From assembly GCF_000420245.1 (NCBI RefSeq), contig NZ_ATUO01000003.1, forward strand, positions 1 to 57,500: DNA of 57,500 bases, given 5' to 3'. Each line of letters begins with the position of its first letter. Position 1 is the first letter of the stretch. Shown here one piece after another: positions 31,528 through 33,140 of this stretch. The notes under the pieces were generated by a model, which made no database searches, was not told where the DNA came from, and saw only the letters and a list, made by a program, of their open reading frames with translations. Origin of the DNA: Psychromonas hadalis ATCC BAA-638. Its GTDB lineage: Bacteria > Pseudomonadota > Gammaproteobacteria > Enterobacterales > Psychromonadaceae. Made by a program: the position numbers and the translations under genes.

Positions 31528-32001
31528 ATGAATAAACAACGGTTATTAGAACAATTCTTAATTGCATTAAATGCGGTATTTCAAAACGCGATTAATGCGG
31601 CACAACGGGCACATGATACTGCTACCGATAACGAAAATATTGCAGAAAATAAATATGATACCTTGGCCTTAGAAGCCAGCTATTTAGCCCAAGGGCAATC
31701 TGTTCGTGTTGAGCAGTGTGCGAGTGATCTTCAGGCTTTCAAAAAGCTGAATAATACCGCGTGCGAAAAGGTCAGCCTCGGTGCGTTAGTACTTTTGTTA
31801 GATGAAAAAGATAATGAAAAATGGCTGTTTTTGGGACCTGTAGCCGGTGGTTTGAAAGTGTTTTTTGAAGGTAAAAGCATTGTTGTTATCACACTAAGCT
31901 CTCCATTAGGACAAGCGATCAATCAAGCAGACGTCGGTCAAGAGGTGAGTGTCAATATTGGCGGTAATCTTATCGGTTATGAAATCATGCAAATTTTTTA
32001 A
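31528..32001 (+). CDS. GreA/GreB-family (FKBP-like domain) protein
   Basis: 157 aa. A helical N-terminal half (about 1-65, probably a coiled-coil hairpin with AAQRAHDTATDNENIAENKY) is followed by a C-terminal domain ending SSPLGQAINQADVGQEVSVN, which matches the SP(L/I)G-x-A-(L/I)-x-G-x-x-x-G-D signature of GreA/GreB C-terminal domains. It lacks the length of GreA/GreB only marginally, but the N-terminal acidic tip is not clear, so transcript-cleavage activity is uncertain; it could be a Gre-like factor such as Rnk. It follows cra by 28 bp. Confidence 0.75.
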   Translation: MNKQRLLEQFLIALNAVFQNAINAAQRAHDTATDNENIAENKYDTLALEASYLAQGQSVRVEQCASDLQAFKKLNNTACEKVSLGALVLLLDEKDNEKWLFLGPVAGGLKVFFEGKSIVVITLSSPLGQAINQADVGQEVSVNIGGNLIGYEIMQIF

Positions 32002-32309
32002 TCCATTAACGATTCAAAATCAGGCTCTGGCGCTAAACGTGAGCGTGCCTCTGCCGCACTGAAATATTCTTTATCCGCTAATAAAGCCGTTAACTTTTCC
32101 ACTGTAAATGTTTCACTGTTCAAGCCACTTTGTAAGCGTTGTAAACACTTCTTGCTGATGGTTTGTTCATCTAGCTGTAGATATTCTCGGCAAAAATAGA
32201 GCTGTGGAATGGAAAAAGCAAAAGCACTCAGTTGTGCCAGATGCATAGCATCAAGTTGTCGCGTTAATTGCTCAAGTGAAACACTGATATTTAAAAGTGT
32301 ATTAGTCAT
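31998..32309 (-). CDS. small uncharacterised protein
   Basis: 103 aa from the ATG at 32309, chosen because GGAG lies 11 bases ahead; the frame runs on to 32396 without support. Soluble and helical, with LEQLTRQLDAMHLAQLSAF, then FSIPQLYFCREYLQLDEQ and a C-terminal acidic tail APEPDFESLMD. It overlaps the end of the convergent Gre-like gene by 4 bases. No family recognised. It is downstream of the csrB terminator on the same strand. Confidence 0.65.
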   Translation of the reverse strand: MTNTLLNISVSLEQLTRQLDAMHLAQLSAFAFSIPQLYFCREYLQLDEQTISKKCLQRLQSGLNSETFTVEKLTALLADKEYFSAAEARSRLAPEPDFESLMD

Positions 32310-32482
32310 AAAACGACTCCAAACAGAAAGACAGTAAAGACTGTACAGGAAACAAGGAGGGAATGAAAAGGCAAGTGAACACTGACCCTTGTACACACAT
32401 CTAAAAAGTACGTGCTTTAGTCATCGTCTTACACCCAACTGAAGCTTTAATTCATATTAAAAGAAGTTTATTGCAGGCAATG

Positions 32483-32889
32483 AAAAGGGCAGCCGAAGCT
32501 GCCCTTAATTAGTCACTCTATCCAATCCTTGATAGTTGGTGCTCCCTGCTCTGCATCCTTTTGACTATGCCCATCTAGGCGTCCACTTCCCAATCCATTG
32601 GGCACTTCCATATTATATCCATATAAGATAAACATCCTGTTTATCAATCATCTCCCTTTCCTTAGGAGGTGTCCTTCACTTGTCATCCTGACTAATAATA
32701 ACCATCCTAGTTATTATATCCCTTCATCCTGAAAGGTGTTCCTTAACTACATCCTGTAGTTTGTTCCTTTGTTTTCCATAACGATAAAACATCCTGTTTT
32801 ATCACTTCTCATCCTGAGAATGTCCACGTTGTCATCCTGACAATGTAATCCGCTGAAACTTACATCCTGTAAGTCACTTCGTGTTTACG
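32483..32889 (-). ncRNA. csrB: CsrB/CsrC-family regulatory small RNA
   Basis: Read on the minus strand, this stretch has no reading frame but carries over 20 GGA triplets, nine of them in the loops of short hairpins. Loops CAGGATG occur at (plus coordinates of CATCCTG) about 32632, 32692, 32724, 32750, 32790, 32810, 32832 and 32862, with AGGATG variants at 32703; stems differ from one another (GATAAA/TTTATC, AACTA/TAGTT, GATAAAA/TTTTATC, AACTTA/TAAGT and others). This is the signature of CsrB/CsrC, which sequester the translation regulator CsrA by offering many copies of its AGGA loop. Length about 405 nt compares with 369 nt for E. coli CsrB. A likely -10 (TATTAT) lies at 32896-32901 and an intrinsic terminator with a UUCG loop at 32485-32506. 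The family call is strong; exact ends are estimates. Confidence 0.9.
32485..32506 (-). terminator. intrinsic terminator of csrB
   Basis: On the minus strand AAGGGCAGC and GCTGCCCTT form a perfect 9-bp stem closed by TTCG and followed by TTC ATT. The stable UUCG tetraloop is usual for strong terminators. Confidence 0.88.
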
Positions 32890-32895
32890 AAAGGT

Positions 32896-32924
32896 ATAAT
32901 ACGATGCAAGTAAACAAATTAAGT
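32896..32924 (-). promoter_or_regulatory. predicted csrB promoter
   Basis: On the minus strand TATTAT (32896-32901) is a good -10; the -35 area (32917-32924, TTAATT or ACTTAA) is poor, as expected for a promoter needing an activator such as the BarA-UvrY type response regulator. A palindrome TAAC-TTAT-GTTA at 32987-32998 lies about 100 bases upstream of the start and may be a regulator site. The rest of 32925-33140 shows AT-rich sequence only. Confidence 0.5.
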
Positions 32925-33140
32925 GTATAAAAACCACCAAAGTAGATCACCGAAACATCAAAAACAACAAAAGATATAATAATCAGTAACTTATGTTAAA
33001 TTAAAATAAAATAGGGCAGATATAAATACTTTATTACCACTATATCCCAAGTTAAAAATGGTCAATCTCTTACAACTTATTTTTATTCAAAAAAGATCTT
33101 TCTATAACTCATGAAAAAACCGTCTTATACAAATTGCAGT

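Follow-up and report, generated by a model that had tools for sequence, protein, structure and literature searches.

A csrB-type RNA gene predicted on the minus strand of a Psychromonas hadalis contig

Between a small gene and a porin gene of Psychromonas hadalis ATCC BAA-638 lies a series of short hairpins, and the question raised by this locus is whether they belong to a regulatory RNA and, if so, to which family. The DNA analysed, called the window hereafter, is a stretch of 57,500 nt from contig NZ_ATUO01000003.1. An initial annotation made from the letters alone had proposed a CsrB/CsrC-type sRNA on the minus strand, and our results agree: RF00018 scores above its gathering score, the partner genes are encoded in the genome, a UvrY-type site is present and the stems covary. 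With a probability of about 0.96, positions 32889-32481 of the minus strand constitute a csrB gene, the RNA of which would be activated through BarA-UvrY and titrate CsrA, transcription and binding being extrapolated from the known family. The locus is an ordinary member of the known CsrB family, a true csrB, and a reader of raw sequence can call an RNA of this type correctly. The analysis adds to the initial annotation the likely bounds of the gene, its upstream box and sibling copies, and conservation across the genus, and a clean, conserved csrB locus is now given for the marine genus Psychromonas. No work on Csr RNAs of Psychromonas was found in the literature searched; the genus name occurs once in a Shewanella paper (PMC5471319).

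A GGA-rich hairpin array matching the Rfam CsrB model

Within the 57.5 kb window the sole Rfam match at gathering score was RF00018, the CsrB model, at 32779-32475 on the minus strand (77.5 bits, only 6.5 above the gathering score of 71; E 6.1e-19), and it covers the model over its full length (1-356). A match over 32480-32890 of that strand had been anticipated; the gathering score was passed, but the match begins about 110 nt inside the inferred RNA, so that the 5' part lies outside. Hairpins 1-4 (32875-32783) fall within this 5' part, where only a weak separate match was seen (32842-32806, 15.3 bits), and the gene is therefore longer than the part aligned to the model. The whole-Rfam scan lists CsrB without CsrC, with overlapping matches within a clan reduced to the best one, so that a weaker CsrC match would stay hidden; the locus is better called CsrB than CsrC. 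The RNA gene is indeed found in the interval first given to it (32483-32924), but positions 32924-32890 are promoter and the UvrY-type box lies beyond that interval. Protein-based annotation would miss the gene, as had been pointed out, whereas a routine Rfam scan finds it. The features of the locus are as follows.

33057-33074, minus strand: UvrY/GacA-type upstream box TGTAAGAGATTGACCATT, a sequence match, some 175 bp before the inferred start
32896-32901, minus strand: -10 element TATTAT, conserved as GTATTAT/GTAATAT/GTACTAT in genus copies
32481-32889, minus strand: putative CsrB RNA, about 409 nt, 27 GGA, 15 AGGA; both ends inferred; RF00018 and census
32857-32875, minus strand: hairpin 1, CAGGATG; 78.6% of cells paired in seven copies
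32829-32843, minus strand: hairpin 2, CAGGATG; census and seven-copy alignment
32806-32820, minus strand: hairpin 3, CAGGATG; outer pair U-A in 3/7 and C-G in 3/7 copies
32783-32803, minus strand: hairpin 4, CAGGATG; outer pair A-U in 4/7 and G-C in 3/7 copies
32745-32761, minus strand: hairpin 5, CAGGATG; census and seven-copy alignment
32720-32736, minus strand: hairpin 6, CAGGATG; census and seven-copy alignment
32695-32717, minus strand: hairpin 7, TAGGATG; both-side changes in 5/10 pairs, 88.8% of cells paired
32682-32692, minus strand: hairpin 8, CAGGATG; U-A in 17/26 and C-G in 7/26 distinct rows
32652-32668, minus strand: stem CTCC...GGAG with AAGGA in the loop, without both-side changes
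32627-32645, minus strand: hairpin 9, CAGGATG; census and 26-row alignment
32589-32602, minus strand: stem with UGGA in the loop, both-side changes in 3/5 pairs
32518-32535, minus strand: stem with AAGGAUUG in the loop, 100% of cells paired, without both-side changes
32486-32505, minus strand: intrinsic terminator stem, UUCG loop, then UUUUC; 99.5% of cells paired

A census of the minus strand between 32900 and 32480 (421 nt) counted 27 GGA and 15 AGGA, with eight exact CAGGATG and one TAGGATG. All nine hairpins described at the outset are present; their loop had been given as a constant CAGGATG, which holds for eight, but the remaining one carries UAGGAUG. The extra GGA loops correspond to further GGA-bearing stems found beside the nine. 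Nine GGA are carried by stems of at least six pairs, and in 8 of these 9 GGA itself forms the three-base loop. GGA with a stem of at least 4, 5 and 6 pairs numbered 13, 12 and 9, respectively, compared with means of 3.6, 1.6 and 0.6 and maxima of 8, 5 and 4 in 300 dinucleotide-preserving shuffles; for CAGGATG the count was 8 (shuffle mean 0.07, maximum 1). No other stretch of the window, on either strand, is as dense in GGA as the array (27 per 400 nt; mean 2.7, sd 2.0), and the fold of 32892-32481 (-114.3 kcal/mol, z -4.28) was equalled in stability by 0 of 100 shuffles. An inverted-repeat finder with a minimum length of 10 returned no pairs over 32450-33000, probably because most hairpin arms are shorter than 10. 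The absence of a coding frame was borne out, as the longest stop-free runs span 45 (minus strand) and 55 (plus strand) of 136 codons.

The array ends in the UUCG-capped intrinsic terminator recognized initially, the stem of which (GGGCAGC-UUCG-GCUGCCC, at 32505-32486) is kept in the genus, with G-C replaced by A-U in 2 of 26 rows, though its U tract is only UUUUC. A consensus scan for promoters and terminators reported neither the csrB promoter nor the terminator; the short U tract of the latter escapes such a scan.

Siblings, covariation and genomic neighbourhood

Relatives were sought with RF00018, using stricter filters, in 60 genomes including that of P. hadalis (24 of the genus and 36 others of the order); 35 of the 60 had a match at E <= 0.01 and 22 had one over the cut-off. 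A genus model, R1 (114 positions), was built from 29 Psychromonas copies, with sequences supplied by 19 of the 24 genus genomes (alignment A3). At E <= 0.001, R1 found a relative in 24 of the 24, among them the five genomes independent of the model (G001, G005, G006, G017 and G021, with best E of 5.5e-27, 1.0e-20, 1.0e-18, 1.5e-20 and 3.6e-18, respectively), none of which had an RF00018 match at E <= 0.01. In Psychromonas, sibling copies of csrB escape the Rfam gathering threshold. At the window copy, itself a training sequence of R1, the model matched 32592-32481 on the minus strand.

The genome of P. hadalis holds a second csrB on contig C132 (L038:4484-5097), which scored 67.2 bits, below the gathering score of 71; it has a terminator and the exact box, and is identical to the window copy at 360 of 403 aligned positions. 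Neither mnmE nor a porin lies beside this copy, and a frame that by eye looks like a transposase is located about 0.9 kb downstream. A third, weaker candidate on contig C217 (L039:340-890, minus strand) contains 31 GGA in 551 nt, a strong terminator and a box with three mismatches; it reached 20.9 bits with RF00018 in a permissive search, and gave no RF00018 match at E <= 0.01 and none with R1. It adjoins genes for proteins of 104 and 658 aa, and the same neighbours occur at a weak CsrB match in another Psychromonas genome (G023, L083). A weak RF00018 match on C112 (9.4 bits, E 4.3) was set aside as chance, since 8 of 14 control genomes match at that threshold, one of them over the cut-off.

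The inferred lengths of the 34 bounded copies were 382-428 nt in 20, 451-465 in 8, 514-550 in 3 and 617-689 in 3, with 23-44 GGA per RNA over the whole range of 382-689 nt, and hairpin units seem to have been gained or lost among the copies. The three longest (L075:5805-6493, minus strand; L081:6353-7002, plus strand; L082:922-1538, minus strand; 617-689 nt by inferred bounds) carry 40-44 GGA. Some relatives in the genus have two or three tandem copies: at L068:5684-7683 and L081:5576-9043, three stand in tandem downstream of mnmE, every one of them with its own box and terminator, and RF00018 missed the middle one of L081. In another family of the order, genome G032 (C1:4533806-4536939) has an array of five csrB copies at a spacing of about 0.7 kb, all over the RF00018 cut-off.

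The initial annotation had read stems that change around a loop that is kept as the mark of selection on RNA structure, and covariation across the Psychromonas copies does exceed that of shuffles. The 3' half was aligned for 28 genus copies (26 distinct rows, 44 pairs) and compared with 500 shuffles and with slid structures, and 95.6% of cells were paired. Both-side changes occurred in 12 pairs and 46 cells versus 6.4 and 14.3 in the shuffles, none of the 500 reaching either value, and the slid structures did not exceed 6 pairs and 8 cells. For the seven full-length copies that share the architecture of the window copy, 96.4% of cells were paired and both-side changes were found in 7 pairs and 12 cells, versus 4.2 and 5.7 in 500 shuffles, of which 6 and 0 reached these values. 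One of the five measures, 'further pair types', was not above shuffles in the full-length copies (428/500 reached the value) and was weakly above them in the 3' half (23/500). The counts do not represent independent events: the rows share ancestry, tandem copies from a single genome are among them, and one A2 row is misaligned. Helix 1 had only 78.6% of cells paired in the full-length alignment, and one inner pair of hairpin 7 fails in 17 of 26 rows. The AGGA cores changed little across the alignments.

The position of the locus between a small gene (31998-32309) and the porin gene is as first described; mnmE lies on the porin side. Neighbourhoods were compared for 28 csrB-bearing stretches: 25 from 18 other genomes of the genus, two other contigs of the same genome, and the window. 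In 15 of the 28, the window included, mnmE lies in the examined flank, and in 10 of these 15 there is also a porin gene; this recurrence makes porin-mnmE a conserved csrB neighbourhood. On its opposite side the window copy has the small gene, a GreA-like gene and FruR, a flank unlike that of these relatives. The small gene, on the minus strand, encodes a 103-aa protein without a Pfam or NCBIfam match at E <= 0.001; relatives 45-58% identical occur in 12 other Psychromonas genomes (13 of 24 with its own), that of G018 being split into two pieces. In 11 of the 12 the relative is on a contig without a csrB match, and in G019 it is on the csrB contig about 1 Mb away; judging from these sequences, the small gene is probably irrelevant to csrB. 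At 31528-32001 (plus strand) a 157-aa protein is encoded; Pfam recognizes a GreA/GreB C-terminal domain in it, but it stays far below the cut-offs of NCBIfam for GreA. Two relatives (L064 and L074) have GreA-like homologues near csrB at another locus, on the opposite side of csrB, and recombination between csrB loci is accordingly not supported as the source of the differing downstream flank of the window.

The predicted promoter region and its UvrY-type box

The -10 element noted at one end of the array, TATTAT at 32901-32896, follows a pattern conserved among the genus copies and places the 5' end at about 32889. A good -35 was not seen in the sequence of the csrB promoter, and a weak one may be expected of an activator-dependent promoter. 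On both strands of the window, TGTRAGAGAT occurs only at the upstream box, and the exact 18-mer has two sites in the 4.0 Mb draft genome, both preceding csrB copies. With up to 3 mismatches, 11 sites matched the true pattern and 12 a backwards control, so that only the exact sites are meaningful. The 11 comprise the two csrB copies, the C217 candidate and eight others: four (L132-L135) were checked and rejected as extra copies, with 2-6 GGA downstream, and four lie on C11, C49, C108 and C146. The window box differs at two positions from the UvrY/SirA site of Salmonella csrC, TGTGAGACATTGACCATT, to which the box of one Psychromonas copy (L061) is identical.

Each of the 32 copies with a '-10' pattern has an upstream box TGTRAGAGATYGACCATT with 0-3 mismatches, at a box-to-'-10' spacing of 172-176 in 30 and of 159 and 161 in the other two; where the pattern matched more than once the position-fitting match was taken, so the narrowness of the spacing is partly chosen. 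The -10 of three further copies was placed by spacing, and L066 had neither box nor -10. Two other lines were dropped. Three 1-mismatch matches to an IHF consensus between box and promoter lie in AT-rich DNA and are not counted as evidence; the box-to-'-10' identity of the two own copies (115/157) was set against 112/169 and 117/159 in the outer flanks, in gappy alignments, and promoter homology was not adopted.

The exact 18-mer was found 38 times, in 35 stretches, among 84,980 species genomes, and GGA were counted 180 to 580 nt downstream. A GGA-rich stretch follows in 19 of 19 Psychromonas occurrences (20-31 GGA; one, cut at 192 nt, has 11) and in 8 of 8 from Photobacterium (20-22 GGA), and single occurrences in Agarivorans, Pantoea and an Aeromonadales MAG are followed by 21, 13 and 10. 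The other eight (two Saprospiraceae, a Bacteroidetes MAG, Peribacillus, Sporosarcina, Crocosphaera, Oleiphilus and Coxiellaceae) have 2-7 GGA and look like chance. In an Rfam scan of 18 of the 35 stretches, RF00018 passed its threshold only in Agarivorans (two matches). At gathering score it missed four Psychromonas loci that have both the box and a GGA-rich stretch (L098, L100, L117 and L120), which makes RF00018 an insensitive judge in this genus. The same scan found Spot 42 in 7 of the 8 Photobacterium stretches and in that of Pantoea. In the former (L107, L111, L115, L116, L118, L119 and L121) the GGA-rich stretch that follows the 18-bp box is located about 2 kb from Spot 42 and has no Rfam match at gathering score. 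Because csrC of E. coli lies near spf, the box stretches near Spot 42 in Photobacterium and Pantoea may be csrC loci.

Could the hairpins instead be no RNA gene at all but an array of repeats of the REP/BIME kind, or a mobile hairpin element, in which GGA occurs by chance? Short intergenic inverted repeats in such number, and the tandem copies of some relatives, would be in keeping with this, but no unit is a copy of another, the stems differing around a constant loop, and orthologues of the same architecture keep the order of the hairpins and one terminator. With covariation and the Rfam match speaking strongly against it, and the promoter distance nearly fixed, we regard such an origin as extremely unlikely. 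That the plus strand, with its TCC/CATCCTG repeats, is the functional one is hardly credible either; hairpin symmetry alone would allow it, whereas RF00018 and R1 match here on the minus strand only, and box, -10 and terminator all share its orientation.

A different proposal accepts the family and holds that the window copy is decayed or silent and that the second copy on C132 or the C217 candidate does its work. Redundant copies do exist in the genome, and loss of a single csrB copy is tolerated in Vibrio tasmaniensis (PMC6262261). We nevertheless consider this very unlikely: the box, the -10, the nine hairpins and the terminator of the window copy look intact, its differences from the C132 copy include both-side stem changes (for example, in the outer pairs of hairpins 3 and 4), and it is the window copy, not that on C132, which occupies the place conserved in the genus.

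The Csr pathway and comparison with known systems

For the window locus read as an active csrB, the hallmarks of the CsrB/RsmB family were found together: the covariance score, GGA/AGGA in loops, compensatory changes, an intergenic non-coding position with a rho-independent terminator, the UvrY/GacA box and BarA-UvrY genes (by sequence match) and CsrA encoded in the genome. There are two CsrA genes (90.5 and 87.6 bits, cut-off 27). The UvrY encoded on C222 is 72% identical to that of E. coli and intact to a natural stop; a response regulator of 212 aa encoded on C23 was rejected as UvrY, since its identity to the E. coli protein is only 25%. BarA shows 44% identity over full length, and a CsrD-like protein shows 30% identity over residues 1-635 of 646.

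Activation of csrB-type RNA by BarA-UvrY is established in E. coli and Shewanella (PMC4682653, PMC3171408), and sequestration of CsrA by Csr RNAs in E. coli. By analogy, we infer transcription, UvrY activation, CsrA binding and CsrD-assisted decay at the window locus. The BarA kinase would give rise to phosphorylated UvrY, which would bind the box (33074-33057) and, from its position about 175 bp upstream, activate the promoter with the -10 TATTAT. Transcription through to the UUCG terminator at 32505-32486 would then give an RNA of about 409 nt from the minus strand, and its approximately 27 GGA, many of them in hairpin loops, could bind many CsrA dimers. The mRNAs that CsrA represses or stabilises would be released by this sequestration, and decay of the RNA would be assisted by CsrD. 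More tentatively, and with the odds somewhat against it, the CsrA-titrating capacity of Psychromonas might be tuned by turnover of the sponge (gain and loss of hairpins, tandem duplication and coexisting loci), all under one conserved asymmetric UvrY site at a near-fixed distance.

CsrB of E. coli K-12 is, like the window RNA, a GGA-rich hairpin array with an upstream UvrY box. Its gene is annotated at 369 nt, with the box TGTGAGAGATCTCTTACA at -191 from the annotated start; in published work the UvrY site TGTGAGAGATCTCTTACA is centred at -183/-182 (PMC4682653) and the RNA has 22 GGA (PMC11882849). The Psychromonas RNA is longer (about 409 nt, 27 GGA), and its place is different, beside porin and mnmE in contrast to the yqcC-csrB-syd arrangement of E. 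coli. The csrC boxes of E. coli and Salmonella are asymmetric, as is the Psychromonas box TGTAAGAGATTGACCATT, whereas the E. coli csrB box is a near-perfect palindrome. The Salmonella UvrY/SirA site TGTGAGACATTGACCATT (PMC4682653) matches the window box at all but two positions, but belongs to csrC and not to csrB.

For Shewanella oneidensis MR-1, PMC3171408 describes csrB1 and csrB2 as close together, UvrY-dependent and provided with putative UvrY boxes, with transcripts of about 450 nt (csrB1) and 450-700 nt (csrB2); there, the two genes are separated by a transposase and the box is given as TGTAAGN6CTTACA. Vibrio resembles Psychromonas in having several csrB siblings per genome: PMC6262261 reports CsrB1-CsrB4 of V. 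tasmaniensis and CsrB, CsrC and CsrD of V. cholerae as sibling copies that arose via duplication, most Vibrio copies being under VarS/VarA and csrB1 of V. tasmaniensis independent. Unlike Vibrio, some relatives of P. hadalis in the genus carry adjacent tandem copies beside mnmE.
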